A DNA stretch of 64,000 bases from Beverwykella pulmonaria (taxonomy: Eukaryota; Ascomycota; Dothideomycetes; Pleosporales; Melanommataceae): contig BCHH01000017.1 in the NCBI GenBank assembly GCA_001599595.1, positions 263,054 to 327,053 on the forward strand. The letters run 5' to 3'. The translations under genes and the position numbers were made by a program. The notes below the pieces were generated by a model, which did no database searches, was not told where the DNA came from, and saw only the letters and a list, made by a program, of their open reading frames with translations. This document shows positions 22,901 to 64,000 of this stretch, one piece after another; positions within the stretch are counted from its first letter, which is position 1, and every line of letters begins with the position of its first letter.

Positions 22901-24669
22901 CAGGTTCGTCTTGACTATCTCCCTCGCTACTCGTTCCATCATCAAGACAGCCCGATTCAGTCGCCACCTTAATCACACCAGTGTCTTCTAGTACCTTGGA
23001 CGTGACGGTATCATCTTCGTGTTCGGTATTATGTTCCCTGCCGCGCCGCATATAAGATTGCAACAGGGACCCTGTGATAATCTCGACCGGAGACCCTTCA
23101 TCAGACTTTGTGATAGAAATAGGCTCAACTTCATTGTGTTCGAGGCAGCTGAGACAAAAGAACCTGGTGTCACTTTGATTATCCACAATTTTGGCCACGA
23201 TTTGAGATGCGGTAGGACGGTCTTTTGGCAATGTCTGCAGCATCTCCTTCACCCACTGCAGAGTCTCCTTGTCTTCAGAATTAGAGCTGGCTCCTAATTT
23301 CTTAATCCAACCTTCAGTTCCTTTTTCATTTTTCCAAAACTCTCTACAGTTCGTTTCATTGGTGGCATAATAGGCTTCCATATCATCGAGGGAATGATCC
23401 AGCAATACGGTCGCCATTTCGAGGAAAACACATCCCATGGACCAAATGTCACAAGGGTATCCACGAGACTGTCGACGATTAGAGCAATTCAACATTAGCT
23501 AAATAAACGAAACTTACCTCCTGGTCGACAACTTCAGGTGCGCAATACCGCGTAGTTCTTGCATCGGTCTTGCCCGTCGAAAAGCTTCGGCTCATATCTC
23601 CCAGGACTCTGGCCGTTCCAAAATCTGTGAGATACACGTTCTCTTTCTTGACCAGCACATTCTGGGGTTTAATGTCTTTGTGGAGGATGCGGTGCATATG
23701 GAGATACTCCAGTGCGTTGATGAGGCAACCGAAGAAAGTTCGAAGGCACTGCCTCTGGGCGTTTCGATCCAGCTCGCTTGCCCTCTTCTGTATTAAATAT
23801 GCTTTGAGGTCTTGATCCGCGACAGGTCGCATTATTAACCCGACATATGTGGGATCTGTGTAAGAAGACACAAGTTTCACAAGATGTCGATGCGATGCCG
23901 CTTTCAATGCCGTAAGTTCCTTATCGAGACTGCCGAGGGCACGTTCGTCTTGCAAGGCCGACATCCCTCGATGGATTCGCTTTCGAGCAAAATATTTCAA
24001 CGTAAAGGTTCCGTAGACTTCATCCACTATACCAAAGCCGCCCTGGCCTAATATCCTGATAGGGGAGAAATAATCGTCGGCCGAAGCACGAAAGTTGAAA
24101 TGTGCACTACCCTCCTCTTCAAGCTCGTTGAGATGTTGACTAGACAGCACCAGAGCTTGAAGTCTCAAAAACTTGGCTCGGGCTTCTGCTCCTTTAATCG
24201 CATCCGGGAGGTTTCGATCGTTATACGGAAGAAACGCGTCAGTTCTTCTCATCGCAACAAATGATTCCATGACTTCAGTGCAACCAAGTATGCGCAGTAT
24301 ACAAAATGTCCTCGGCCGCAACGCCCATTCGCCGCGTCCAAACTGTCGAAGTAAATCACTGATGTAAGAGAAAACTCCATCGCGCAAAACTGGAAGCATG
24401 TCCAAGGGGTCATTGGGCCGGGGTATGTTGACCTTATCGAGCTTCTCATCTAATTCTTTTTCTGATATTTTCCTCCTCACTGCCTGCAGAATTAAATGAC
24501 CAAAGCTTGATCCCCTTCTCTTAAATCTAGGTCCGGGGCGTTGATCTTTAGCAGACTCATGGTTGTTTGCTAATTGCCGTACAACCTGGGTTTCCCTGGG
24601 CGCTTGCGTGCTGTCGGGTAAGCAACCCTCCGCCGAGGGAGTCTCGTGTCTGTGGCTACTGTTATGCAT
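19996..24669 (-). CDS. multidomain kinase / GGCT-like / ankyrin-repeat protein
   Basis: Protein of 1524 residues in three exons (23518-24669, 20394-23468, 19996-20343; introns 49 and 50 bp). Residues about 205-480 form a Ser/Thr kinase domain: glycine loop ILGQGGFGIVDEVYG, Lys in KYFARKRIH, catalytic loop HKDIKPQNVL (HKD instead of HRD), DFG in LTDFGTARVL, then YCAPEVV and CDIWSMGCVFLEM. After a long polar linker, residues about 730-930 resemble the gamma-glutamylcyclotransferase/AIG2 fold (NLFVYGRLMFPSAL at the start). Residues about 975-1110 hold ankyrin repeats (FGTPLQAAVTLDREDMVRLL, YGTPLIAATMGGRKNITRIL). The last exon ends in a CVRCNGLGW...CQDC pair, like a small zinc ribbon. The true start is the ATG at 24669. 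A signalling role is inferred; the substrate is unknown. Confidence 0.85.
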
Positions 24670-25798
24670 TGTTTTCAAATGTATTAATTATGACGTCAGA
24701 GATTGATAGTTTTTCTGAAGGTTGAGAGAATTTGCAATCAGAATTGCAGGAGGTAGTCTGCAGACTTTATCAGCGTGACAAGGCTGAACATATGATCGAG
24801 GGGCTGTGGGCGACCGCCAATCATTTAAAAACAAGGCGTATTATGTGTAGCATGAAGGATTTGCGTCCAGTGGGCTGTTCTCCCGTTGGATAGCCGAATT
24901 TCAACCCAAAGCGGTTTTGATAGGCGAAGGTCACCTCATCCCCTCTGGCATATTTGCGACATTGAAGGATCGGCATTAATCGATACAATATTAGCATGTG
25001 ATCTCACTCCAAACCCACAGAAGACTATTTTCGGCACGCGGATGCCCCGAAATACGAAATAGCCTATCACTCAAATGTGAATCCACATTTATGACATTTT
25101 TCACTGGCGAGGAAAGCAAAACGTAACACGAAAACTGACGATTCTTATTCCATCAATGCAGCACATCGCTGTCGCGGTCTTCATAAAGATATGAATGTTA
25201 GCAGCTGTCCACTGCCTAGATTAACCAGTCATTTGCTTCACCGTATGATTGATCGAAAATAGGCTTCTAAAATAACATAAATTCGCTATCAACATGAACA
25301 TAATGCAATGTAGGTCCATAAAAAAGACCTACCAGTCACTAACAGCGACTATATTCATCGTACGTATTCACTAACGTTGTAATTACTAGAGGGGGATTGG
25401 AGGGGATATAGCGGTCGGTGCACAATATACGTAAAGGTTCTGATTGGTCAGAATCGCTTTATAGGACAGCAGGCTCGTGAATACGGTATACGGCCTTGGC
25501 GCGACGAAGTCTAGGGCAGAAGAGGATTGAAGACTGCCAAAGTTCGCAACCCTCGCCTTTTGAGGAATAAATGACGCGAATATGCTTACTATCAGGGGTG
25601 AGGCGGTCGGACGAAGTCTTCGCAGCTTAAAATTTAGAGAAGTATAAAAGAAATATCGACTGCTCCCACCTCAATATGATGCAGTACCCATTCTTCCATA
25701 CTTTCAGTGTTAAATTTTAGCTGTTCTTCGCTCTTATTGTGAATCTTCTGAGGCAAGCCGTGCACAAATCAGCGAGTCAACTGAGTCCCTCAGCTGCC
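24670..25798. other. intergenic region between kinase and BBE oxidase genes
   Basis: Divergent promoters of the two genes must lie here. Mildly AT-rich, with no open frame of note and no RNA gene recognised. Confidence 0.4.
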
Positions 25799-35958: not shown

Positions 35959-37844
35959 TTAGGCAGTCGAAGTCGCAAAAGTGAGCAGAGAGCCGTAGTT
36001 CGGCGTTCCAAGTCCAGTTGCTGGGTCCCATCCAGCAACGGCGCTAAACCCAGCACCAGATATCTGACCACTACACCCAGTGATCTTACCCGACTTGATG
36101 TCGGTGAACCCAGTGCTGGCAGTGTTATACAACCACGGATTTAGGAACCCTAGACCCTTCTTCCCTGCCGCAATTCGCCCGCTGTTCAATAACTGTATTA
36201 TACCTGCAGTTGTAGGAGCAGAGCACGATGTTCCTGAAACGCCGCTGGAGCTTCCACTAGCAACAATAACGAAGTTGGTTGCCTGGGCAGAAATATCAGG
36301 ATAAGCGCGTCCAGATGCGTTGAAGTACTTTGCCACCGCGGTGTGTGTGGTATCCGTTGTGAGCCAGTTTGACACTGTCGCATCCTGGTAACTGGGCCTG
36401 CCGAAGATCTCAGAGAATCCACCACCTCCGCCGGACCAAGCTGCTTCAGGAGAGTTGCCAGTCGTACCGCCGACAGTTGTAACCCAGGGACAGGCTGCGG
36501 GGAATGAGGTGGTGAATTGCGCGTTGCCATCAACAGTGCAGGTGTCACCGACACCAGAATCGCCCGAGGAAACGAGGATAGATACACCTCTCGCGCCGAG
36601 TTGGGAGAACAAATTGCAGGCATTTGTAGCGTAGGCGAGAGGAACGGTGGCTTCGTCGTCACCGTACGAAATGGAGAGTGTGTTCGGCAGTGACGCATCG
36701 GGAAGCGCAAGCATGTAGTTTAGGAACTCGAGATACGGCTCATTCGTGTTAGTTCCCGATCCAAGCCACTGGCCGCGACCCGCGGTGCTGTAGTATGTAT
36801 TCGGGACGGACGTCGAGATGGAGCCGGCGTATTGAATGTCGAGGTTTGCTTCGATACCAGGGGGAGATGAAGGACAAGATCCACCATTCACAACAGTACA
36901 CGTGAAGGTCTTAGCTTTGTTGGCAAAGAAAGCATAGCTGTTTAGAAAAGTGGTGAAGTCGGCTTTGATGGCGTACTCCTCAAGGAACCCGGCAATACCG
37001 AGAAGACCAACCGTCTGGACTTCGGCGCTGGTGAAGTTGTATAGATTTGCGAGACATGTTGGTGTGATGCGGGTACCTGTGCATCCGGTGACTGCCTGAA
37101 CGGCATTGGTGTTGAACTCTTCTCCGAGGTCCTCGACTGGGTGGACTTCGGAGATAGTCGATCGTAGCGTCTTGAGACCAAAGAATGTGGTCGGTTGGAC
37201 CATATCAACGTGGCCTTTGAGAACATCTGGGAGACTGTATTCGAGGGTTCTGAGAGTCTTTTCGGAAGTTCCAGGGCGCACTACATGAGTTAGAGAAGAG
37301 CAAGCGCGTGCATGATGTTACCCACCGAAAATGCTGTATTCTGCGCCCAGGAGCTTCTCAACCATATTGACGCTCGCCTGGAGAGTGACATAGTCACCCT
37401 TCAGCGTGACCTTAGCTTCGCTGCTCGATACCTGGGTCGCTAGCCACTGCATGACAAGTTCGCTTGATTCTTGCTTGGGAGCAATCATCGAGAGAATAGC
37501 TTCTTGGGACATATGATTTCCGTACTCTGCGTGCCCTGGTGTTGCGATCTATCGATCGATATTAGCATTGGTTCATAGGGCTCATAATATGTACCAAGAA
37601 ACCTTACATTCATAGCAAGCTCATGGAACTTGTCCATATCCTGGTTCACGAGATGAATCTTCAGCGTCACCGTAGTGGTATCCTTATCTAACTTCGCGGC
37701 CTCGTCTTTCACCCAGCCAACTGGAGGGCTCTTGAGCTTCTCCACGACACTGCTCTTGAAGTCGACATCTTTGCCAATTGCCGGTAGTGCGACACAGGCT
37801 GTCGATAGAGCGACGATCGCGGAAAGACTCTTGAGAAAGAACAT
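35959..37844 (-). CDS. secreted sedolisin (tripeptidyl-peptidase, S53 family)
   Basis: Secreted acid serine-carboxyl peptidase, 593 residues, three exons (37608-37844, 37326-37548, 35959-37280; introns 59 and 45 bp). It has a signal peptide (KSLSAIVALSTACVALP), then an activation prodomain of about 180 residues (PPVGWVKDEAAKLDKDTT, TPGHAEYGNHMSQEAI). The catalytic domain shows the Glu/Asp pair in GIEANLDIQYAG (about 297 and 301), the oxyanion Asp in VSSGDSGVGD (about 394) and the Ser in SGTSCSAP (about 505). The C-terminal calcium site is in DIKSGKITG and GWDPATGLGTPNY. The family removes tripeptides from protein N-termini at acid pH, for external nitrogen use. The second intron uses a GTGGGT donor and is the least certain boundary. 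Confidence 0.94.
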
Positions 37845-44443: not shown

Positions 44444-45982
44444 ATGAAGCTCTTACACACACCTTGGTTTCTTTCAGCAGCTCTGGTAAGTGCAATTCCT
44501 GCACCACTGGCTGATCTCATCGATGCTACAACTCCGGAGCCTTCTGGAGCCTCTGGTTTACTTAGGGGCTCAGAATCCTTACTCGGATACGCGCCTTCAA
44601 ATCTGGTACCGAAAGAACCTTCCACAGTGATTCCGCCCGATGAGTTTGAATTAGCACCTGGACAATCTGAAGACGCCAGCCTGGGTCTCTACCTCGATCT
44701 TACAAACGTGAAAAATCCACAAGCGATTAGAGGTGGATCGACGGGGCCGACTGATCCAGGTCCTAGGTAAGTAGGCTATTTACTCTGCTCAAATTCATCC
44801 ATGCATCATGAAGTAAAGCTCTTGCTGATATTGTGTTGTAGGACCGAGGCATACGACCGTCTCAACAGTGACTTGTATATTCCCCCAACCACTGATTCAG
44901 GAGACGTTTCTAACGCCAAATGGCCCTTTGGTCTTTCCCACAACCGACACGGCCTTGCAGGCGCTGGCTGGGCTCGCCAACAAAATGTCGATCAACTTCC
45001 CATCGCGAAAGCCATGGCCGGTGTGAACATGCGACTATCCCCCCACGCCTACCGCGAACTTCATTGGCACAAGGACGCAGAGTGGGCACTTATGTTGAAC
45101 GGAAGTGTCCGCATCCAAGCCGTAAATGAAGACGGTCAGACCTTCGTTGACGATGTAACAGCCGGAGACGTATGGTTCTTTCCACCAGGCATTCCACACT
45201 CTATCCAAGCCTTTGAGAATGGCTGTGAGTTCCTGCTCGTCTTCAACTCAGGCGATTTCAGTGAGGACAATACCTTTCTCCTCTCGGAGCTCATGGAACG
45301 TACTCCCGAGGTGGTCGTCGCAAAGAACTTCCGCACCTCAGTCGAAACTTTCAGCAAGCTTCCTAACGGCCAGTTATGGATATTCCCAGGAACTCCAGCG
45401 CCAAGTGATATCGCAGATCAAAACGTCACCGGTCCTGCCGGTGCTATACCGCAGAGTCTGTCGTATAGCTACCACTTCTCCAAACAGGAACCTTACAAAG
45501 TCCCAGGAGGCTCCATAAAAGTAATCGACCCGGCCACCTTCCCCATCGCAAACACGTTCTCTGCAGCCCTCATTACCGTGGAACCCGGTGCAATGCGCGA
45601 GATGCACTGGCACACCTCTTCTGATGAATGGACTTACTTCCTGCAAGGGAGTGCACGGTTAACGGTCTACCAAGCCCCAGCCTCCTCCCGCACCTTCGAC
45701 TTCTCTGCCGGCGATGTTGGATACGTGCCTGTACCCAATGCACATTATCTCGAGAACACGGGAAATGAGACATTGATATTTCTTGAGGTGTTGCAGGCAA
45801 AACAGTACAGCGATATTAGTGTGAATCAGTGGTTAGGGCTCACACCCAAGCAGATTGTGAAGGATCATTTAAATGTGGATGATGGTTTTGTAGGGTCTCT
45901 GCCGAAAGTTAAACCTTTTATTGCACCAGGGAATAAGGATATGACGACCACAAATTTTACGGAGAGCCATTTCAAAGGTTAG
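44444..45982 (+). CDS. secreted bicupin oxalate decarboxylase
   Basis: Manganese bicupin of 487 residues that converts oxalate to formate and CO2. Two exons (44444-44766, 44842-45982; 75-bp intron). The ATG at 44444 starts a signal peptide (KLLHTPWFLSAALVSAIPAP). Cupin 1 has metal ligands in HWHKDAEW (His 182, His 184, Glu 188) and GDVWFFPPGIPHS (His 227). Cupin 2 has HWHTSSDEW (His 363, His 365, Glu 370) and NAHYLEN (His 409). The lid next to cupin 1 reads SEDN (248-251), close to the SENS lid whose Glu distinguishes decarboxylase from oxidase activity in the bacterial enzyme. A secreted enzyme of this kind would remove the fungus's own or plant oxalate and raise pH. Confidence 0.95.
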
Positions 45983-46665: not shown

Positions 46666-48058
46666 CTAAGAATTTGAGTTCTCCCATTTCACAATGATTA
46701 ACCCAAGATCGGCTCCCTCTGATTTCTTTATCTCGTGTATTCGAAACCTCGGATCAGCCATTTCAACTAAACCGTGCCAGTCTTTAACGCTCCGTTCTTT
46801 TCCATTTTGGATTGATTTCATGGCTAGATTCATCGCACTTTGTTCCAGAAATGTCAGGTATCTAAGAATTTTGCTAGGAGGGAGTAGTCATACCGTGGTA
46901 AGCGCTGTTTATACAACGACGTTGATCCTGTATACTCGGGAAGGAGAGTCTCATTCAACACTACCCAAGCGCCGTCCTTTAGTGCCGGAATGAGCGCTCG
47001 CAGGATTCGGACAGCATAGAGATCAGACCAATCGTGCAAGATCCACCTCAGGAAGTATACATCGGCGCCATGTATTGGCTGCTCGGTGAAGAAGTCATGC
47101 TCCATGAAGCGAATTCTACATTTGAGGTCTTGCTGTTCCGTTTGGATTCTTTTCCTTGCTTCAACGATAACCTTTGGAAGGTCTTGCACAACCACGGTGA
47201 TGTGGTCAAATGCCTCCGCAATACTAATACTCGCTTTCCCAAAGCTACCTCCTACATCGACGACTTGCGTCACGCTTCTCCAGTCAAAACCTTCGACGAT
47301 GAAGCCTGGATGTCGTTCGGGCCTCATGTCCCACCATTTCATTGCCATTGCGACGTCTTTCATCTTTCTCTCGTCTTCAGCGAGAACCTTGAAAATGGGG
47401 TGGTCCGTCTTCATCGCGATGTTGAACCCGGCTTCATTCGGCTCTTGTGATGTCGGCCATCGTTCCATAGCTTCGACCAACCCTGTTGATGCTTGAAGGA
47501 GAGGGCCAAGAGGGAAAGCTATCCAACCACATAACTCGGGGTTCTCAGCCAAGAGACGCGAAGATGCTGTATGGGCCACCACGCCGAGAGATGGCTCGTG
47601 GAAGATGCGGTAGGTCATGGCATGGCGAATAATGCTGGTGGTGTCTTGTACTGAGATGTTACATTTTTCTGCTATGCTGGAGAAGGTGGTAGTGGATGAT
47701 GGCGGAAAAGATGATGCAATGTTGAAGTGAACGATAGCTTGAAGGGATACCGTGGCGTTATGCTACAGCAGAGGTATTAGTACACGTATTTGAAATGGAC
47801 GATGGGCTGCAAGACATCATAACCGCCAAAACTCATAAGAGAGTTCTGAGGCCCTTGAACGAGCTGAGACAGCTCATCTGCGGCTTCTAGGAGCGCTTGT
47901 TGCGCTTTGTAGGTCTCCTTTGGAAGCTCTGCAGCGGCAGATACATCGAAAGAGAGCGGAGGTTGATTGTTGGCTTTGAGGAAGGCGTCGATGGACAGAG
48001 CGTTCACCTGAATTTGGTTGGCAAGGTCAACGATGCGACTTGGAACTTGGTGGTTCAT
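46666..48058 (-). CDS. SAM-dependent O-methyltransferase (candidate RiPP-cluster member)
   Basis: Class I O-methyltransferase of 428 residues, fungal family 2. Exons 47816-48058, 46915-47762 and 46666-46861. A helical dimerisation domain (IVDLANQIQVNALSIDAFLKAN at the start) precedes a winged-helix part (FSSIAEKCNISVQDT) and the SAM fold. Motif I is VVDVGGSFGKASISI and the loop with catalytic His is RWILHDWSD. The C-terminus ends DLGLIIVKWE. The first intron is inferred with a weak GTCTTG donor; the second (53 bp, donor GTATAA) restores the family alignment (MNLAM..IQNGKERSV.DW). It shares layout and N-terminal motif with the O-methyltransferase at 56390-57837, so the two flank the precursor and UstYa genes. 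The substrate could be the ripening peptide or a small phenol. Confidence 0.87.
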
Positions 48059-48763
48059 GTTTGCTTGTTTTTCGATTTCTTTGAACTGTTCCCAAGCAGC
48101 GTTGGGAGTTTGTGAGGCACTTTCACACTATCCATAGTACCATCTCTTACTTCCCCCGGCACGGCCCTGATGCTCGGCCTTCTTCCGCAAACGCCCTTGC
48201 GGAGACCACAGTACGAAAATGTTCGGATGCGTATTTGCTAGCAGCGACTAACTGACCGAAGGCTTCCCTACGGAGTGGCTGTAAATTCGCTTGTGTCAGT
48301 GCGCAGCTTATGTGGCGTTGTTATTGCCCCCGAAACCTGCGTGCTACATGCATATGTACCAACGCGGCGCTAAAGAAGTGCGTACCAGGGACACCCCGAA
48401 GCTTCCCCATCTTCAACAAGTAATACGCACAGACGCTCAGCGGTTACCCTTCACACCCACCTGCGACATTCTCCAAGTCCGATACTCCAATAAACCCACT
48501 CATGATAGTTGATTCCCGATGCACAATGGAGGAATCGGTGCTTATGATTCGCACCCTAATCTGAGGCCTTTTGTTCCGTAGTCTTGCGACCTTCGCAGAA
48601 TATACGGACATGGGCCCCGACCATACACCACGATACTTTAATTGCGAGCCGCTGCACTCTGTAATCTACAACCCCGTCGTAACAATATATTATCCCACTG
48701 CAAACCAGGTCGGTGGAATTCTGTATTTCAGTGTCTCACTCAGTTCAGCACTTGTCGATCATT
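48059..48763. other. divergent promoter region
   Basis: About 700 bp between the starts of the O-methyltransferase and rhodopsin-domain genes. No coding signal; could coordinate the two genes. Confidence 0.4.
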
Positions 48764-49913
48764 ATGCCAGCTCCACCATCTGGATCTCCACCATCTGGAC
48801 CACCACCTGGGATACCACCAGCATTCCTGAACCGACCAATAGATGGTGATGTCACGCAGGGTCCAGCCTTGCTAGCGGTTACGTGGACATTTGCTGCCAT
48901 TTCAGTCGCAGTTTTTTCTTTGAGAGTTTACTCTCGTCAAGTACTTACCCGGAACCTGGGAGTCGAGGATGCTATCATGGTCGTTGCTTTGGTGGGTTCC
49001 ATCTTCGTTGAATTTTCTTAAGTCTCGGCTCACAAAATAATCCAGCTCCTCATCTTCGTTGAAAGTTCCTTGGTAACAAAAGCGGTCGAGCATGGCATCG
49101 GACGCCACATGTTCTTTGTCGGTCCTATTGAATTCCCAGAGGCCCTGAAATGGCAAATTATTGCAGAGCCCTTCGCCATCATGGGGGCTTGTGTGCCGAA
49201 GCTTGTTGTTACCATGCTCCTCCTGAAGATTCTCGTTCCAGGCAGATTGGTCGCGGCTTTCTTTTGGACAATGAACGCAATACTATTCTCAATCTCGCTC
49301 GCGACAAGCGTAGTCGTGATCGTGCAGTGTACACCTGCTTCGGCGCAATGGACACGCATGGGGACGTGCTGGGATCCAAGCATTTCTACCAATGTTGGAC
49401 TTGCACAGGGATCCTTTGCCGCGTTTGCAGATTTTGCGCTTGCGCTCTTCCCCCTCACTGCTATCTGGAGTTTGCAGATGAGCTTTAGCAACAAGTTGGG
49501 GGTCTCATTTCTCATGGGCATGGGGCTTTTGTGAGTGCTCTACTTCCTCATGCGAGAGCAGAATCTAACTAATAGCGTGCAGCTCTGGTGTTGGTGCCAT
49601 AGTTAAAACTACCAAGTTGACCAAGTTGACCACCAAAGACGATATTACTTGGGAACTGTGGTCTCTCGTTCTTTGGGTCATGCTCGAATTGAATATCGTA
49701 TTCATCTGCGCATGTGTCCCCGCCATCCGCCCGCTTTGGACCAAGTACTCTCCAAAGATATACAGCACCAAGGGCAGCGGCGGCACGCCATACGCGTACG
49801 GGAGTTCGAAGAAAAGCTCATATGTTCTCCGCTCGAAAGGCAAAAAGTTTAGTGCTGAGAAGGATACTGATGCGACAAGCCGGAGCAGTGAGACACAGCT
49901 TACCGAGCCGTGA
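48764..49913 (+). CDS. rhodopsin-domain (PTH11-like) membrane protein inside the candidate RiPP cluster
   Basis: Seven-helix membrane protein of 347 residues in three exons (48764-48991, 49046-49530, 49583-49913; introns 54 and 52 bp). It opens with a Pro/Ser/Gly repeat (PAPPSGSPPSGPPPGIPP) and then has helices including LLAVTWTFAAISVAVFSL, ACVPKLVVTMLLLKIL, ILFSISLATSVVVIVQCTP, SFAAFADFALALFPLTAIW and LWSLVLWVMLELNIVFICACVPAI. The R.YSRQVLTRNLGVEDA link between helices 1 and 2 and CTPASAQW are family marks. The tail is Ser/Lys-rich. Members of this family are common in fungal secondary-metabolite clusters, with unknown function. Whether this one belongs to the peptide cluster is inferred from position. 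Confidence 0.88.
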
Positions 49914-52179
49914 AATGTTGCTGTACAAGTTATTTGCGATTTATTATGTTGAGATACCCTTCTGTTAGTATCTCAATTTTGGTTTCATAGTTGGTTGTCC
50001 AACATTTGGTCATGTAGAGACTTAAAGTATATTATTTTCATGCCTTTCATGTAGAAACCTTATCTTGTCTGAATATGTTTGCATGAAAATTCTAAACTTA
50101 ATAATAACTGCAAAGCATCTTAATAAAATGATTATGTGTGATGAGATAGTGCGGTTCTATCCAACACAGCACTGGTTGAAGCGCTGTGTTCCGTAGAGAA
50201 TTGGTCTGCCTGTATATTCGTAGCAAATGCAGCGCCCTCTATCGTCTGCCTTACGCAGCATTCATACCATAAAGTAACTTAAGGGATTAAAGGCAAATTT
50301 CTGTAGACGAATCTCCAACACATGACCGAGCAATTGTATGCTTGGCTCTTATCTTTCCACTGTCTCGTAAGCCTAATGACAGGATGCCCGGTAGAAACAG
50401 GTAAACGACAATTCCTCCACATGGCTCATACTATAGAATACATTTGGGATATCGGAAACGGCAGATGTCATGAAAATCCACGGACTTTGCCTGCGGTAGG
50501 AAGACGCCATACGAGGAGGAACTCGCAGTGAGACAGACCATTAGTCACCGAGTCTCGCTCAAGAAGTTCGGGACGCTCGCGACGCTCCTCTCATGCACCC
50601 TGTGAGATGCATGAGCTAGGAATAGCTACTCGCGAAGGACACTTTTGCCAATAAAAAGAATGTGACTCGGGGTTGAACTGGCATCTCTTTGCAAACTCCG
50701 CATGAGTTTGTGCGTTGCCGTGATATAATTCCAAAATCAAAAGCACCCAGCCTAGAGATCCGAACTCCGTCCTGCCAAAAATGTTTCTAATTGCAAAGTT
50801 CAAATAGAAATCCTTCGAGAAAGGTGCTATTCTCTTAGCCGCTTCAACGGGTTGGAGCTCAAAGAAGCTAGCTTGGTGGAACAATAACCGATGTCAGACA
50901 ATGCTACCGAGCCGCAGGATGCAAAGGAACCCAAACTTCAGCCAGAGGTGCATATTCACGTGGGCGGAGAAACAACCATGCAAGTTATATTAAACCCAGA
51001 CAGGGTTCATAAAAGAGACCTAAAACCCGAGCATGACACGGGCCTCGGGTTCCGCGCAATGGTGGCGGGAATTCGGGAAGACATGGATCATTCGCATCAA
51101 TCCTGGACCAATGCGCGAACAGTTGCACAAATCACATCCGATATCGATATGCACATGAGTATTGGCTAGCCGCGGCTTGGAGACACCAATTATACCACAA
51201 CAAAGTCAATCAAGGAGGTCAGAAATCGACATGATTATTTAGACCAGCAAACAGTTCTAGAAATCTGATTGGACCCAACCCAGTTGTGCTACCAAAATGT
51301 CACTTCCCACCTGCATTGGTTTCCTTGCAATGCGTTGACATGATTTTGAATGAGTTGAAAGTAGGTTGGAAACAAAATCATGGGCATGAGGTGTAAGAAA
51401 ACTCAAAAACAAGAATCTAAAGGGCATCTAAGCTTAATGGGATCTCAAATGCGAATAACCGAGTTAAAAGCTACAGGGTAAGGAGAATAAAACTTTGTCT
51501 CGAGTCCGCTCGGTCTACAGCGTAAAAGCAGGGTATCTTGACCTAGCAGGATTTCTTGACCGGAAACAGTCGTTACGTGAGACAGGAAGAGGGCGAGAGT
51601 TATACCTTGTGGCTTAGACGATCTCAGATCACTGTTATGCTAGATTTGATACACATCACTCAGAGTTTATCCTCCACTATTTCCCATTTTCTGCAATAAA
51701 ATACCTGATCCAGTCAATATTTTCCAAACTTCAATATATATCCCCAATAAAACCGATAAATCGAGTCAGACCAAATTGAGGTGATAAACAAGGATTAACC
51801 AACAATTCCCGATATACCGTACACCCCCTCCCATGAACGAGTGGGCAGCGTGAGCCACCGCACAGACAGAATTTGTATGGCAAAAGGTCGACTTGAATGG
51901 AAATGCACGGACGCACGCTACCAACCCGCCAATGAGAGGGGAGTGTATAACACTCGACTTCCGATCGCGTGACATCCAAGCGAATCCCTTAATCCAGGAT
52001 ATGGGCCTTATTCCTACCGGATCTTCTAGAAAGCAACTCGGGTAATACGTTGGGGCCCTAGCTCGTTGACAGACGTAGGGTTTTTTTGAAGACACATCAT
52101 TTTCCCCAGCCTCTTGTCATCATTTTATCTCTTGGTTGAATTCGTTTGCCATTCATCTTCCAGTTTCGTATCACGAACC
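49914..52179. other. intergenic region with one possible small gene
   Basis: About 2.3 kb. The open frame 50891-51169 is listed separately. The rest is AT-rich in part (49920-50160) and shows no convincing gene; a minus-strand frame at 50591-50884 lacks motifs. Confidence 0.4.
50891..51169 (+). CDS. small hypothetical protein (tentative)
   Basis: ATG-initiated frame of 92 residues with an even polar composition (EPKLQPEVHIHVGGETTMQV, DTGLGFRAMVAGIREDMDH). No signal peptide, helix or known motif; family not recognised. It lies in the gap between the rhodopsin-domain gene and the first UstYa gene. It could be a real small protein, but no splice or conservation evidence is available. Confidence 0.35.
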   Translation: MSDNATEPQDAKEPKLQPEVHIHVGGETTMQVILNPDRVHKRDLKPEHDTGLGFRAMVAGIREDMDHSHQSWTNARTVAQITSDIDMHMSIG

Positions 52180-52979
52180 ATGGAGTCCTCCAAAACAAAC
52201 CTTCAAAAATATCATCTTCTTCAAGATGAAGACTCGAGCGATGACAGGTCCGAAAAGATGCATCCCATTCTCGAATTTAGACGACCATGGCTCAGTATTT
52301 TATACGTAGTGTGCGCCATTTCTGGATTAATTCTTCTGGGCGGTGTAGCTGGATACAGTCTTGGGAGAGTATCGGCCAGAGAGAGTTCGGCATCACCAGT
52401 AAAATGTAGGGCTTTTGGAATATTAAATGGCAAGGCATCATTAACATCGCTTAGATGAGATGGTCACTACATCCTTCACATACAATCGGACATTCGCAGA
52501 AGCGCCTACACCCGAAAACGATGCGTTGTGGGAGGATCTTATTCCGCCACATGGCGGATTCTTTCACGATCGGGCTATAACAAAATATGGGGCATCGCTA
52601 GCAGCCTATCACCAGCTTCACTGTCTCGTAAGACGATTCCCTCGTGTTCCCTACAGTCACTATCTAACAACCATATTAGAACGGAATTCGTCACGGATAT
52701 TGGATCCTCCATGATGCGGTAGTCTCTGGAAAAAATGTTACCTTTGAAGAACTTCCGGATTACAGTCAGCCGTGGCACACACGCCATTGCATTGATTTCT
52801 TGCGGCAGATGTTAATGTGCAATGCGGACGTCACCATTGAACACACGATACCAGAGCTGGGCGGAATCAAGGGATTCGAAGTACAGCATCAGTGTAAACG
52901 CTGGGATGATATTATTCAGTGGACAATTGATAGACAAGAAGCGGGAAAGAAGCAAGCAGTACCGAATTCCGTGTCATAA
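52180..52979 (+). CDS. UstYa-family (DUF3328) oxidase 1
   Basis: UstYa-type protein of 232 residues, three exons (52180-52405, 52455-52627, 52680-52979; introns 49 and 52 bp). UstYa proteins are copper-dependent oxidases that build the macrocyclic ether links of fungal RiPPs such as ustiloxin. An N-terminal cytosolic part is followed by one membrane helix (about 40-62, WLSILYVVCAISGLILLGG). The luminal domain has TFTYN-type start (TSFTYNRTFAEAPTPE), W..LIP..GGF, and both hallmark motifs: HQLHC (128-132) and HTRHC (166-170). CNAD and HQCKRWDDI near the end are also typical. It lies tail to tail with the second UstYa gene, 259 bp apart, and about 1.8 kb from the repeat precursor. Confidence 0.93.
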
Positions 52980-53238
52980 TGGTAGATAGATTTAGAGACC
53001 AGGCGATATTTGCTGTCGTTCTAAGTAAACTGGCTGTCTTCATTGTGACAGCAAAGGTATACCCGAATTGTTGCCTTCAGAATTCCTATATACGGTTGAA
53101 TAAAATAAATATTCTGTTCGATGTATACATATGGAATGCACAGAGTAACTCCTTGGTAAAATGCAATAGCATTCGATTATTCAATTTGAGGAAGCCACTA
53201 GGTTGGCTTAACCAAAACAATACGCATTACTATGAAGA

Positions 53239-54199
53239 CTATGAGAGTGGATTCACCATACCGTCTATTTCCTCGAAGGGAATCACTCGTGGTACAATAG
53301 ATTCCATAAATACTTCCCAATCCACACAAGTCCGTTCGAATCTTGCTATGTCTAGGGTTGGTCTCGGTGCTCCAGGTGTCCAGGTGAAAGTAGTCAACGA
53401 TGTATCCGGATTGCACATTACCGACTGTCGCAATAACTCGACGCAATGATCTAGAGTATGTAAGCCTTTGAATAAAGCCTACAGATGATCTAGCAGAAAT
53501 GATCTACTTACTCATATGAACTTCTAGCTCTTCTGACTCTGTGTCAGTCATATTTGAGAAATACTCGTCTCGGTAATTCAATCGTCGAAGCTTTTTCTAT
53601 GAGCGTGGGTCAGTACTTGTAAGTTAATGCATGGTGTCAAAATTAGAGCACGTACAAGACAGTGTAATTGATGAAAGACACCTATCCAAGCCATGTGACC
53701 GCCCTGCGGTAAAGCTACCGACTCATGGTGATTTCCATTGCGATTCAATTCGGCTTGCGAGACCCGAACACTGATGTTCGCAAGCAATTCGCTCCAAGCT
53801 TCATCGGCCTGTGTTGAAGAGCCACCTACGAACGGGCTTTGGCCGATCGGGATGTTCTCGGTAGTTCTAGTACGTATTGTAAGGTTCGATAATGCTATGA
53901 AGTCTCAGAAGTTTACACGATATACTCAAGTTCTAGCTAAACATACCGTTCGATAGTAAAAGCGGCTTCGATGAACACATTTGAAATTGATGGAGAAGAA
54001 CAAAGGCGATGGTATATGAGAATATGAGAGCGGCGTGAAGTAAGCATCCGCGACGAGTGAAATTTCTCACTCTTCGGTCGAAATCTTGTTCGTGTTGTGT
54101 GTGTGAACATTTGTGATCGCTATGACCATGCTCGATGAGGTTTTGAGTTTCTTGAATTTCAACGCTGTGTTTCTCCATTTTTGGGTTCAATTTTGGCAT
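53239..54199 (-). CDS. UstYa-family (DUF3328) oxidase 2
   Basis: Second UstYa-type protein, 262 residues, four exons (53947-54199, 53656-53894, 53512-53596, 53239-53450; introns 52, 59 and 61 bp). A His-rich cytosolic N-terminus (EHGHSDHKCSHTQHEQ) precedes a helix (about 51-70, GCLLHAALIFSYTIAFVLLH). The luminal domain contains DEAWSELL, GGHMAWIGVFHQLHCL (HQLHC at 159-163), NYRDEYF and HMNHC (191-195) followed by VELLRQSVMCNPD and TFTW. Both HxxHC motifs are intact, so it should be active. It starts head to head with the repeat precursor, sharing 554 bp. Dikaritin clusters usually need one or more UstYa partners, and the two here differ greatly in sequence, so each may act at a different site or as a pair. 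Confidence 0.93.
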
Positions 54200-54753
54200 T
54201 CAAGAAAGAAAATGAAAAGTATCTATTGAATTGAATATGGAGTAGGTGGGCAAAAGTTAGACCCTGAAAACGCCAAACGATACTCTAAGCCTCACTGAGC
54301 GCACCCTCCATTTGGGGAAGCACGAAACGTGACGCTCGTTTGTAAAAGCTTAGAAATTGAGCTAACACCCCGTAAATCGTTAAATCCCGAAGCAATCATC
54401 CACAGTTACTAAATTCTTACACAATGTTGGGGCTGACCACTTCCTTGTAAGTCGGAATCCGAGAAAGTGATACTTGCTTCTTAGCGTGCCTCGGTGAGTG
54501 CCCAGGTAGACCTTCTTGTGGTTTAGCATGATGAAGAGCCTTGGAAGTCCGGTCGTTGGGCCCGAAATCCTTAGAACCTTTGTTCTGGCTTCCAGGTTAC
54601 CGGGATGAGACATATATGCAGTACTTCTCAACACATTGAAGCTATCTCTGTCAATCTCATCGAAGACGGCCAACTCAAACACCGACAATTCTAAAGTTGA
54701 TCAAAATACAATCAATTCATCTCTTGATAAAGAACTTCATATACTGAGCGGCA
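54200..54753. promoter_or_regulatory. shared divergent promoter of UstYa oxidase 2 and the precursor
   Basis: The 554 bp between the two start codons should drive both genes. A minus-strand open frame (54380-54688) begins at a non-ATG codon and is not supported. No specific factor site was identified. Confidence 0.5.
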
Positions 54754-55240
54754 ATGCATTCCTCCATCATCCTTGTAGCACTTTTCAGTGCCTTTGTTAT
54801 GGCCAGGCCTCTTGCTGGTAAATGTCCCACGTTAATATAACCACATCACACCCCAATATTAACCCCTCATAGAAAGCCCTTTCACTCTAGTTTCACGTGG
54901 CTCTGTCGATCGTGATGAAGACATTGTCTATCCAGACACTGGCTTATACGCCGAGAATGGCAAACGATCCACGACCGACCGAGACGAGGACATTGTATAC
55001 CCAGACACGGGTCTCTATGCTGAGAATGGAAAAAGATCAGCTCCCGACCGAGACGAAGACATTGTCTATCCAGACACGGGTCTCTATGCTGAGAATGGGA
55101 AAAGATCAACTGTCGACCGCGATGAGGATATTGTTTATCCTGATACCGGTCTATACGCTGAAAATGGGAAGCGTTCGACTGTTGACCGAGATGAGGATAT
55201 AGTGTATCCCGACACTGGTCTCTATGCTGAGCAAGGTTAG
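54754..55240 (+). CDS. Kex2-processed repeat precursor of a candidate UstYa-type RiPP
   Basis: Precursor of 143 residues, two exons (54754-54817, 54873-55240; 55-bp intron). A signal peptide (SSIILVALFSAFVMARPLA) sends it to the secretory path. After about ten more residues come five repeats of 23 residues (the last 21). Each unit has a variable dipeptide, an acidic stretch DRDEDI, then VYPDTGLYAENG; the first four end in KR, the Kex2 site, and the fifth ends EQG before the stop. This is the architecture of ustiloxin- and asperipin-type precursors. Two Tyr per unit (VYP and LYA) offer phenol oxygens for UstYa crosslinking. The head-to-head UstYa gene and a second one nearby support the call. 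The exact core is not known; the segment around YPDTGLY is the best candidate. The product could be bioactive; no activity is shown. Confidence 0.9.
54899..55237 (+). repeat. five-unit 69-bp in-frame tandem repeat
   Basis: Units: 54899-54967, 54968-55036, 55037-55105, 55106-55174 and 55175-55237 (63 bp). At the protein level the units differ only in the first two or three residues, plus one Asn-to-Gln and the missing KR in the last. At the DNA level units 1 and 4 differ by a silent change in 15 of the 20 shared codons. Confidence 0.95.
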
Positions 55241-56389
55241 AGGGTCGATGAGTCAGGTTATTTGAGTCGCAGTGAACAACTTGGACAAATTTAGGTGGAA
55301 GCGTGGATCTAATAAGTGTCGCGGTGGGACGAAGTTTGATAGAGAGATAAATTTTGATTGTATTGATTCTACAGACGAGCTACCGAAGAAATATCTATGG
55401 TTTTACCAAGCACACTAAGAGCCTACCCAGATAGTGAAAGCAAACACTGAGGTGACCCACCATGTGACCCACGGGCCGACAATAACAAATCTTGGGTTCA
55501 TATTATATGTTGGTGGATTCATTTGAACAATCCAAAATAATAATAAAATGTGGACTAAATACAACTCGTTGATCATATACCGATACAACCTTGCATCTGA
55601 ACTCCTGGTCGACTTTCATCATATTTCGAGCAGTTTCAAACGCTTTCAACTAGAAGTGAAAACTTTCGGGAATGTGTGATTGAAAACTACCTTCAGCCAT
55701 AGCTACGTGTAAAATAGTTTTGCAAGTCTTTCAAGTAGGTAGATCTATGGCATAAACGAAGCTACTCCTCGGCCACTTGCATGATTTTCAACACGAAATA
55801 CCGTATTGGCCCGTAAGCAGCTACTGCGTTGAAATTTACAGTAGCACGGAATATGTATGCTTTGGGGAGGTTGGAGGTGGCTCGCTACGAGCTTATGCGA
55901 CAAGGGTCTTTTTGGAATTTCCTCGCATTCTACCCCACATAATCAGCAATAGTCTCGGGGAACAGTAATGAGGCACGGCATAACCAAGAAGCCGGGTTTC
56001 TGAAAACCAGGCAAGTCATGCAATCCTATTCCATCTAAGCCTTAACCCTTGCTTGTAATATATTTTCGGTGTACCAGAACGCCACGATAAAAGAGTGCGT
56101 GGGTAGCTCATACAACGACGCGATTCGGTCAATAATTACCGGCTCAGGTGCTCAATCCTTCGTATGAGCCACTCAGAGCCTCCAACTGAGATACTAGTCG
56201 CCGTGTTGTTGGGTTCGGGATGCCGCTTGGGCTCGCTGACTGCATACTAGTCACCCATAACGGCCTTTACCTTACCGGAACGACTTCGCCCCCAACTCAA
56301 CTACAGTGCCGCACAACTACGCCTTAACGGGAGATATAAAAACGAGGAGGGTTGACATCCGTTTAGTCCTGACCACGACGAGACCAATT
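55241..56389. other. intergenic region between precursor and second O-methyltransferase
   Basis: About 1.15 kb. No gene recognised; the last 150 bp presumably hold the methyltransferase promoter. The open frame 55777-55968 has no motif. Confidence 0.4.
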
Positions 56390-57837
56390 ATGGCTTCAAC
56401 TACGAACATCATTGAATTGGCAACCGCCGTTGCAGAGAACACTGCTAAACTCCACGCCTACTTAACCGAAAACGGCCTTCCATTGCCATCACATGACCCT
56501 GCCCTTCAACCTGGTCCTCCTCCTGAACTACCCCAAGAAATTGTGGCCGCTCAGGAGGCCGCAATCAACGCAACCTATGAGCTGCATGAGCTTCTCATAG
56601 GACCATATGTCTTGCTTTTGAACAGTTTGTTTCAGAGTAGTCGACCGATGGCCCTGAGCTTCATTCACGAAAACAAGATCGCACAGGCATTCGAGAGCAA
56701 CGAGACCAAGACTTTTGCAGAAATTGCAGCTTTGCGCAACTTGGATGAAGATGACACAAGACGAATGCTCCGTCTTGCTATGACCAACCATATCTTCACG
56801 GAGCCAACGCCAGGGGTTGTGGCTCATACAGCCTCATCACAGGCTCTTGCTTTAAATCCCCTGCTTTTTGCATGGGCTGGCCTTACTGTTCAAGATCTCT
56901 GGCCTGGATTTGTCAAGGTATGGCATATACCTCGTTTCATGCGACAATATGTTCAGACTAACAGTATTCAGATGACTGAAGCAATCAAGAAGTGGCCTGG
57001 ATCGAAGGAGCCAGAACAGACGGTACATTTGATAACTCCAAAATTTTCTCCCAAGAACAACTCTAATCAAATGCTAGGCCTACGCACTTGCAAAGGGATA
57101 CAAAAACCCTCCTTTTGTGGAATGGGAGAAGGAACCCGCCCGAGCCAAGCAGTTCGGCGATGCGATGAGATTCCTGGCCGCCAAAGACACCGCTGAACAC
57201 GTTCTCTTTGAGTACCCATTTGATTCCAAAGACTCGGTCCAGCTTGTTGATTGTGGGGGCTCCCACGGCGATGTTGCCATTCTGCTTGCCGAAAAACATC
57301 CCAAGCTGGAGTGCGTTGTTCAAGATCTACCTACTGTTATCGCAAACACCGAGGGCCACATTCCGGAGCATTTGAGGAGTAGAGTAGAGTACCAGGTGCA
57401 TGACTTCTGGACTGAGCAACCTCTCAAAGGCGCCGACATTTACTTCTTCCGAAACATTTTCCACGACTGGTCGGATCCGTATGCCATCAAGATTCTGACT
57501 CAACTGCTTCCAGCACTCAAGCCTGGCTCACGCGTCATCATCAACGACGCCTGCATCCCGCCCAAGGGTATATTGACCAACAAGCAAGAGATGGATTTGC
57601 GGTATGTCTCAAATCCTCCCTGTTCGATGCCTCCAAAGTTTCACGTGCTAATTACTGGTTCAAACTTGTAGAACGGTCGATATCTTGATGAAAACAATGA
57701 CGAACGCCAAAGAGCGCGATTTTGGAGAATGGGAACTCCTGTTTAAGGAGACGAGTCCTGGATTCAAGTTTCTGGGAGTGAGCCACCCGCCCGGGACTAG
57801 GAATGCCGTTATTGAAGCTGAATGGGTGGGAATTTGA
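56390..57837 (+). CDS. SAM-dependent O-methyltransferase 2 (candidate RiPP-cluster member)
   Basis: Fungal O-methyltransferase of 422 residues, four exons (56390-56917, 56972-57022, 57078-57601, 57672-57837; introns 54, 55 and 70 bp). The first intron is a multiple of three and stop-free. The ATG at 56390 is the first in frame. The helical N-terminus (IIELATAVAENTAKLHAYLTEN) and winged helix (KTFAEIAALRNLDEDDTRRML) lead to motif I LVDCGGSHGDVAILLA, then VVQDLPTVIANTEGH, and the catalytic His in RNIFHDWSDPYAI. The end is GTRNAVIEAEW. It resembles the O-methyltransferase at 46666-48058 in size, N-terminal helix and domain order. Methylation of a ripening peptide is possible, since ustiloxins and related products carry methyl groups, though often N-methyl. 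Confidence 0.9.
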
Positions 57838-62062: not shown

Positions 62063-64000
62063 ATGCTACAATACATGGGTGGGAACCAGGTCCCTCGAAA
62101 ATATCCAATTCCTCAAGATTTAGTTCTCCCAGCACCAATTACATCGCTTTGCACGCTCTGCACCTCACGCTTGTGGACAACGAAACTGTGTTCAGCCTTG
62201 CGAGCGGAGCCAATCGATAATACCTCATATGTCACATCGTATGAAGTGAGCACTTCAGCATTACGAGACTCAACTCTTGGCGGGTGCAAATGGTGCATAA
62301 CGCTTGCGAACGGAGTCCATGGTCGCATCTTCCTCGATGCTGTCTATGAGCAATGGAACAAAACAGAGAGCTGGGCTTCGGAGGGAAACAATGACGACGA
62401 TAATGACGACGAGGACTCTGACCAGGAAAAGGTAGAAGAGGGAAATGAAGATAGTAAAACGGGTGAAGGGGCGGACAATGAGTGCGGCACCGCTACTGCG
62501 TTCAATGATGATGTCGACGATGATCCCACCGGCGGATGGAACACATACGACGACGACCAGGACACGTTAGCCTTATCATGCAAATTCTCGGTCACCTTGT
62601 CCTTTGAACGGGGAGATGGGGGTCTCTTTACCTTTCTCAATGCACATATCGAGTCCATTGATGAAGAGAAAGATGAAAACAACGCAGCGCAAAAGGTTCG
62701 GGGCGAGAAGGCTGTTGACTTGCGTTACCATATCAGCATGAGCGGTGCGTATTAGATATCGCAAACCACGGCTCAAAATACAACATCACTAATGATGTCC
62801 AAGGAATCGACAAATCACGTACCGAGCCCTTTCCACTCACGACAACTAGTACTATACTAGGCTCAGAATCGAACATACAAACGATACGCAATTGGTTACA
62901 AAACTCAAATAACCTGAGTCCGTCGTCTAGCGAGAACACGCTTACAATTCCCCACAGACTGATAGATATTAGCAAAGAAAGTTTACGGATTGTCAAAACT
63001 TCGAGCATATCTTGTAGCGTACCAGAGCGCTCTCGTGGATTTGCGGCGCTCAGCTACGTCTGGGGCACAAGCCAAACCTTCATCTTACTTAGTTCCACCG
63101 AAGACGAACTTATGAGATCTTTCGATATCTCAAAGCTCCCGCAGACGATCCAAGACGCGATCACGGTAGCGCGAAGAATCGGATATCAATATATTTGGGT
63201 CGATGCACTGTGGGTTTATGCTCTCAAATACCTGTCTGTGCAACCTTGATGACGATCTAGATGTATTATGCAAGACTCCGATGCAGACAAGGACCAAGAG
63301 CTTCCCAAAATGCGGAAGATATACCAGACCGCAAGCATCACAATCGTGGCAGCCGTCGCCAAATCTGCGACCGAGGGCTTCCTCCACATCCCAATGGAAA
63401 CATCGTACTTCATCAAACCTATCCCAATCCCGTATTACAGCCAAGGCAATTCGACCCCAGAACCCCAGCTTATCCTTAGCTATCCGGCAAGCTACATGCG
63501 TTCAAAAGATCCAATCAACGATCGTGCCTGGACATTCCAGGAATGGATCTTACCACCCCGCATTGTCAGCTTCTCATATAGTGGTATAGAAACCATTGAC
63601 AGAAGAAACATTCCCGATGCAGACGGTCTGACATCCAAAAAGTATTCACAACTCCCTAATCTACCCTGGTACGGGAACTCTCTCGCTTTAAAACCAGACT
63701 TCGAAAACCTGCGTCAAGTCTGGCTCTCAATGCGGGAAGAATATAGCAGACGCAAGCTTACCTATGGAGGCGACAAGCTTGTCGCAATTGCCGCTGTTGC
63801 AGAAGAAATTGGACGATCGTACGAGTGCCGATACCTTGCAGGGTTGTGGGAAAGAGATCTGGAGTTAGACTTGCATTGGGCCCGCAACGACGAGCCCATT
63901 ATAGCTTTAAAGCCACGACCAAGTCAGTATGTGGCTCCCTCATGGAGCTGGGCATCTAGAGACGGCGAATTTGAAGACCGCGCCTCGGAGGTTGAAAGGA
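62063..64000 (+). CDS. HET-domain protein (partial, runs off right edge)
   Basis: Heterokaryon-incompatibility-type protein. Exons 62063-62744, 62861-63209 and 63261 to beyond 64000; introns 116 and 51 bp. The N-terminal 230 residues hold a cysteine group (LCTLCTSRLW, GGCKWC) and a long acidic stretch (NNDDDNDDEDSDQEK). The HET domain then shows its three conserved blocks: RGFAALSYVWGTSQTF, then FDISKLPQTIQDAI with ARRIGYQYIWVDALCI, and DRAWTFQEWILPPRIVSF. The sequence continues with SWSWAS, typical of the C-terminal half of these proteins. HET proteins trigger cell death or restrict fusion between unlike strains. The second intron was placed because WVDAL is normally followed by CI.QD. The downstream end is not visible. 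Confidence 0.9.

Follow-up and report, generated by a model that had tools for sequence, protein, structure and literature searches.

This article concerns a peptide gene of the ascomycete Beverwykella pulmonaria and the genes that stand around it. All lie between positions 46666 and 57837 of a 64,000-nucleotide stretch of contig BCHH01000017.1 (positions 263,054 to 327,053, forward strand), which we call the window. It is part of contig C17 among the 31 contigs, 45.6 Mb in all, of the genome we searched. The peptide gene encodes a repeat precursor with a probable signal peptide. Beside it are two genes of the UstYa family (DUF3328, PF11807), and a methyltransferase gene of family PF00891 stands on either side of the set (Table 1). 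The locus is probably a cluster for a ribosomally synthesized and post-translationally modified peptide (RiPP) of the UstYa type, akin to the dikaritins, whose product would be a crosslinked secreted peptide.

Table 1. Features of the locus (window positions) and of related loci elsewhere in the genome (contig:position)
Feature	Position	Strand	Remarks
Methyltransferase 1	46666..48058	-	PF00891; exon boundaries ambiguous; possible cluster member
Fung_rhodopsin-domain membrane protein	about 48764..49913	+	PF20684, 73.6 bits on frame 49022-49534; limits by reading
UstYa1	52180..52979	+	exons 52180-52405, 52455-52627, 52680-52979; 232 aa; PF11807 95.4 bits; HQLHC, HTRHC
UstYa2	53239..54199	-	exons 54199-53947, 53894-53656, 53596-53512, 53450-53239; 262 aa; PF11807 136 bits; HQLHC, HMNHC
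UstYa2-precursor intergenic region	54200..54753	.	554 bp
Precursor exon 1	54754..54817	+	hydrophobic N-terminus, probable signal peptide
Precursor intron	54818..54872	+	55 nt; GT-AG, GTAAAT...ATAG
Precursor exon 2	54873..55240	+
Five-unit core array	54908..55237	+	23-aa period, DRDEDIVYPDTGLYAENG, KR after units 1-4
Methyltransferase 2	56390..57837	+	PF00891; 422 aa; introns 56918-56971, 57023-57077, 57602-57671; probable cluster member
Closest parallel locus	C3:0.340-0.360 Mb		convergent UstYa pair, 14-unit YPESYKR precursor, PF00891 gene, second methyltransferase, P450, amidase
YPESYKR precursor	C3:344939-345511		14 units, mostly (N/T)DEAIAYPESYKR; P450, two methyltransferases and amidase within about 14 kb
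Tyrosinase-bearing locus	C3:4.546-4.552 Mb (C3:4545800-4552000)		methyltransferase, tyrosinase, one UstYa gene, weak second UstYa-like match
Locus with five-copy precursor	C2:0.697-0.705 Mb		PF00891 methyltransferase, UstYa genes, five-copy precursor
Five-copy precursor	C2:703312-704130		units of 34 aa with LLAPRIGYKR at the end; next to UstYa genes and PF00891 gene
KR-containing repeat precursor	C4:335414-336025		near UstYa genes; units end ILGKR
KR-containing repeat precursor	C2:3685326-3685526		near UstYa genes; DNDVDALETRIYYK units

The precursor and the genes beside it

The precursor gene runs on the + strand from an ATG at 54754 to a stop codon at 55238-55240 and encodes 143 amino acids. 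Its start, MHSSIILVALFSAFVMARPLA, is hydrophobic, with a Kyte-Doolittle mean of up to 2.93; the signal peptide was assessed from hydropathy alone. The five units follow the plan DRDEDIVYPDTGLYAENG-KR-S(T/A)(T/P/V), the first four terminating in GKR and the fifth in AEQG directly at the stop codon, and the dipeptides that come after KR are ST, SA, ST and ST. Five cores, four of them followed by KR, behind a signal peptide predicted from hydropathy fit the description of a dikaritin precursor, a secretory protein whose several cores have Kex2 sites between them. The preliminary description of this DNA had recognized such a precursor head to head with a UstYa gene, and so it proves. It gave the core as VYPDTGLYAENG; the conserved unit is longer and starts at DRDEDI. 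LVSR stands ahead of the first unit.

How old is the array? Tandem Repeats Finder places it at the top of nine rows for the window, with a score of 344, a period of 69 and 4.5 copies. At the protein level 17 of the 18 core positions show no variation among the five units. At the DNA level, the 18 core codons compared over 10 unit pairs carry 99 synonymous changes on 118.7 sites (pS 0.83) and 11 nonsynonymous steps on 421.3 sites (pN 0.026). The repeats are old, not recently duplicated, with synonymous sites near saturation, which rules out recent slippage or a low-complexity artefact. The encoded core peptide is under strong purifying selection. Old repeats that go on preserving one peptide mean selection on that peptide, and hence a genuine reading frame in which each copy counts. 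A single-sequence search of the fungus's own genome gave no paralogue of the precursor, and AlphaFold, given P0012 as a single sequence, produced a model of no use (mean predicted local distance difference test score 38.4).

Both UstYa genes are intact and score well above the curated PF11807 cut-off of 25 bits, and UstYa1 converges on UstYa2, as the preliminary description had it. The splice sites of our gene models were picked by consensus and homology. UstYa2 and the precursor are divergent, and the region between them is a possible shared promoter. Each protein carries two HXXHC motifs, the proposed mark of RiPP-related DUF3328 proteins (PMC12048977) and the feature looked for in a UstYa protein near a dikaritin precursor. 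An initial 267-amino-acid model of UstYa2 was 47% identical over 239 aligned columns to a PF11807 protein of Parastagonospora nodorum, the sole match among 335 candidates. We dropped that model, which reads HTLDHC where the P. nodorum alignment has HINHC, for one of 262 amino acids, and the PF11807 score rose from 128.3 to 136 bits. The search for a solved structure related to UstYa2 found none, the best E value being 0.23.

The methyltransferases are 39% identical over 268 amino acids. Both carry the class I O-methyltransferase motifs of PF00891: VDCGGSHG and FHDWSD in methyltransferase 2, VDVGGSFG and LHDWSD in methyltransferase 1. The VDxGG motif binds S-adenosylmethionine (SAM), and HDWSD is the region of the catalytic histidine. 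Methyltransferase 2 sits 1.15 kb from the precursor. Methyltransferase 1 is harder to define, with 58 candidate two-intron readings of its exons, and its PF00891 match rests on one exon-sized frame. The best PDB matches of methyltransferase 2 were 7bqj (2.6e-36) and HpiI, 7bqo (1.7e-29), followed by gedA and lepI. At the HDWSD position gedA also has HDWSD, 7bqj and HpiI have HKEPD, and lepI has RDFPD.

A core family and a recurring set of genes

The preliminary description proposed searching with the precursor for relatives. As a single sequence it found two matches, neither significant (E 1.9 and 5.5), both of which end in the core motif. A profile built from the precursor and those two sequences gave 11 matches: the two that built it, which count by construction, eight further ones with E values from 1.3e-19 to 1.0e-8, and P0011 from Trypethelium eluteriae at E 4.6. 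Both searches scored about 8,000 candidates sharing most words, and the list of relatives is incomplete to that extent. One relative, P0009, is annotated in Byssothecium circinans as a hypothetical protein, and the sources of P0001-P0008 and P0010 are ena, jgi and lgn. We aligned nine of the matches with the first 51 residues of the window precursor (alignment A2), omitting P0011 and P0007, a 52-residue sequence that matches the end of P0005.

The family consensus is DRDEDIxYPDxG(L/I)YAExG, in which DRDEDI, YPD, G, Y, AE and G are invariant across all 10 rows. Eight of the nine relatives have one core, the exception being P0010, with two cores and KR between them, and in all nine the motif reaches the last residue. 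The window core thus appears to be one member of a wider, mostly one-core precursor family rather than an isolated sequence. In most one-core relatives a lone Arg (VSR, VAR, LSR or AVR) lies some 10 residues ahead of the first YPD and may, like the LVSR of the window precursor, be a processing site of a non-dibasic kind.

Is the product new, as the preliminary description expected? Likely so, with the qualification that its core belongs to this wider family. Neither DTGLYAENG, YPDTGLY and DIVYPDTG, nor YPDRDED, GLYAES, DEDIRYPD and GIYAEAG from the relatives, nor YPESYKR was found in the searchable literature, outside which lie most subscription papers and survey supplements. The string YPDTG does occur, in six papers that by their titles deal with unrelated subjects. 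The core may be listed in the supplementary type tables of PMC7329392 or PMC6339444.

Genome-wide, PF11807 has 58 exon matches in 31 neighbourhoods of +/-10 kb. We read 11 of these neighbourhoods, counting that of the window, and took repeated words as a simple criterion for a repeat precursor. Five have one: the window and those at C3:0.345 Mb, C2:0.703 Mb, C4:0.335 Mb and C2:3.685 Mb. At C9:1.3585 Mb, the locus of the closest UstYa1 paralogue, the 10 kb seen showed neither a repeat precursor nor a methyltransferase match. PF00891 has 25 loci in the genome. Of the 23 outside the window, three have a UstYa gene within 10 kb, where 0.33 would be expected (binomial P 0.004, on the assumption that loci are independent and evenly distributed). 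All three rank among the four paralogues closest to methyltransferase 2 beyond the window; this cut-off of four was set after the list was seen, and among the closest six the count is again three. The combination of UstYa and methyltransferase genes recurs several times in this genome with different cores.

The closest parallel is the C3 locus with the YPESYKR precursor. Among matches outside the window, its UstYa pair ranks second for UstYa1 and first for UstYa2. The precursor-family profile matches the YPESYKR precursor with a total E value of 1.2e-5 and 1.7 for the best single unit; given the latter, we do not claim homology of the two cores. The Fung_rhodopsin genes of the two loci were considered as a sign of shared clusters and dropped, being 22% identical. 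At the tyrosinase-bearing locus farther along C3, the second UstYa-like gene (C3:4.5514 Mb) has HQLHY and HICHY, was found by tblastn (E 1e-7) and is missing from the PF11807 list. The same locus possibly encodes a one-core secreted peptide ending DDEVVYSDYNQ, the splicing of which is uncertain.

What the locus may make

The preliminary description assigned the locus to the UstYa-dependent, Kex2-processed, dikaritin-type RiPPs, and judged by its sequence that is the best reading. It follows from a secreted-type precursor with five near-identical, KR-separated cores, two intact UstYa genes and adjacent PF00891 methyltransferases. The class itself is already known; the interest would lie in the conserved core family and the link with methyltransferases. 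Ustiloxin-type pathways start with secretion of the precursor, go on to cleavage by Kex2 behind Lys-Arg and have the core crosslinked by UstYa proteins (PMC9233826, PMC10512285); we propose the same order here. The precursor would enter the secretory pathway, where Kex2 would cleave after each Lys-Arg and a carboxypeptidase would trim the fragments to peptides of about 18-21 residues, such as STVDRDEDIVYPDTGLYAENG. One gene in the genome carries P_proprotein, the domain of Kex2-type proteases. The two UstYa proteins would then oxidatively crosslink the core. The two tyrosines of Y-P-D-x-G-L/I-Y, six residues apart, are invariant and so the best crosslinking candidates, and either or both would most likely be joined to the side chain of a neighbouring residue. 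O-methylation of a tyrosine or an acidic residue, by either methyltransferase or by both, is possible, and the final product would be secreted. Calculated monoisotopic masses of the linear peptides are 2328.039 for STVDRDEDIVYPDTGLYAENG, 2330.019 for STTDRDEDIVYPDTGLYAENG, 2296.013 for SAPDRDEDIVYPDTGLYAENG and 2040.891 for the bare core DRDEDIVYPDTGLYAENG.

Several points weigh against this assignment. The preliminary description held that a precursor plus UstYa proteins suffices to recognize a dikaritin pathway, which is too strong. The UstYa/DUF3328 family also serves non-ribosomal, non-RiPP pathways (PMC12048977), and six of the 11 neighbourhoods we read have no repeat precursor by the repeated-word criterion, hence the presence of a UstYa gene is no guarantee of a precursor. 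Ding et al. (quoted in PMC12048977) gave a five-gene definition that includes a tyrosinase, a methyltransferase, and a peptidase or transporter. Here the methyltransferase is present twice over, and the tyrosinase is missing: PF00264 has 38 exon matches genome-wide at E <= 0.001, none of them on C17. No peptidase, transporter or regulator was recognized in the eight proteins or frames scanned inside 46666-57837, where small exons were partly covered, and the two further ones scanned outside it gave no peptidase or transporter either. Six of the eight one-core relatives lack a dibasic site (P0001 has KR, P0005 RR), and the core family depends on admitting the two non-significant matches into the profile. 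The methyltransferases do flank the set and do belong to one family, as first described, but the Fung_rhodopsin-domain gene and about 2.2 kb without a recognized gene separate methyltransferase 1 from UstYa1, leaving the gene set non-contiguous there.

The precursor might instead yield an unmodified linear peptide, a secreted signal, effector or pheromone-like molecule, with the UstYa genes acting elsewhere or as coincidental neighbours. In a 2020 survey that catalogued 7,878 Kex2-repeat proteins, the nearest 15 genes include a DUF3328 gene for 1,758 of them (22%) and none for the other 6,120 (PMC7329392). A strongly acidic, conserved core such as this one would suit a receptor ligand, and one-core relatives exist. 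Against this, UstYa2 is divergent from the precursor at close range with UstYa1 adjoining it, UstYa neighbourhoods of +/-10 kb span 1.4% of the genome, and the single-sequence search found no second precursor copy in it. Ascomycete alpha-pheromone precursors carry a Ste13 signature, XA or XP (PMC6339444), and here that signature follows KR in one case of four (SA once, ST three times). On this ground and that of the UstYa neighbours we reject a mating pheromone, and we consider a linear peptide of any kind unlikely.

The part played by the methyltransferases is less secure. The locus could well make a UstYa-type RiPP that is crosslinked and unmethylated, both methyltransferases being unrelated neighbours, and we give this not quite an even chance. 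PF00891 is common in the genome, the rhodopsin-domain gene sets methyltransferase 1 apart, and 1.15 kb lies between methyltransferase 2 and the precursor; on the other side stand the excess of PF00891 loci near UstYa genes and, subject to the post hoc cut, the place of all three among the closest paralogues of methyltransferase 2. It is also conceivable, and in our view very improbable, that these methyltransferase-fold proteins do not methylate at all. Among solved structures, methyltransferase 2 comes closest to 7bqj (a Methyltransf_2 domain protein) and HpiI, which, like lepI, we take to be pericyclases. Both window proteins keep HDWSD where 7bqj and HpiI have HKEPD, and keep the glycine-rich SAM-type motif, which weakly favours true methylation; the argument is a weak one as 7bqj and HpiI retain the histidine. 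A bolder and rather doubtful reading is that DRDEDIxYPDxG(L/I)YAExG defines a separate UstYa RiPP lineage, one-core in other fungi and five-core here, tyrosinase-free and with its own O-methyltransferase subfamily, the oxidase-methyltransferase module being reused within one genome for unrelated cores (YPDTGLY, YPESY and others).

The rest of the window adds some neighbours. A major facilitator superfamily (MFS) gene at 6.2-7.8 kb is too distant to assign to the cluster. So is a 452-residue open reading frame (ORF) at 35959-37317, possibly a sedolisin-type peptidase exon, with a weak match to the Pro-kumamolisin activation domain (Pro-kuma_activ, 26.4 bits), about 9 kb from methyltransferase 1. 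Nearer, about 0.7 kb from methyltransferase 1, an oxalate decarboxylase family bicupin (TIGR03404, 530.6 bits) lies at 44771-45982. Protein kinase and ankyrin-repeat ORFs, perhaps a single gene, occupy 20304-24687; by reading, a similar pair lies at L033:379-3175. An exon with a HET (heterokaryon incompatibility, PF06985) domain is found near the window end, at 62719-63249.

Significance and comparison with known systems

Many such clusters have been predicted. A dikaritin is a KEP (Kex2-processed repeat protein) precursor cyclised by a UstYa homologue; five had been reported by 2022 (PMC10512285), set against 838 predicted types of Kex2-repeat precursor (PMC7329392). Two features make this one of interest, a core family shared with another fungus and methyltransferases that accompany UstYa genes. 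A core that occurs in one-core and five-core precursors offers a natural comparison of how UstYa proteins recognize their substrates and of why repeats exist. Conservation of the core between fungi, if true, would point to a conserved target rather than a species-specific toxin. Should the peptide prove a substrate of the methyltransferases, dikaritin chemistry would come to include O-methylation; according to a 2025 lichen survey, O-methyltransferases had never before been reported in dikaritin clusters (PMC12048977).

Like the ustiloxin and phomopsin loci, the window has a secreted multi-core precursor with Kex2 sites, at least two UstYa-family proteins and a methyltransferase gene nearby. 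Unlike them, its contig has no tyrosinase match and its gene set no recognized peptidase or transporter. Its methyltransferases belong to the O-methyltransferase family PF00891, whereas the ustiloxin pathway has an N-methyltransferase (PMC12048977). According to the preliminary description, its core differs from those of ustiloxin, phomopsin and asperipin. Asperipin-2a shares with the locus a repeat precursor beside a UstYa gene and internal tyrosines, which are the source of the asperipin-2a crosslinks (PMC9233826); it has one UstYa gene (PMC7329392), where the window has two, and methyltransferases besides. Clan R1 of Parmeliaceae lichens combines two DUF3328 genes bearing HXXHC with an O-methyltransferase, as the window does; unlike the window it has a tyrosinase and no recognized repeat precursor (PMC12048977). 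By gene kinds, the tyrosinase-bearing locus at C3:4.546-4.552 Mb shares more with Clan R1 than the window does. In architecture, the window also resembles the KEPs, several types of which are rich in Y and D and some of which stand beside DUF3328 genes (PMC7329392).

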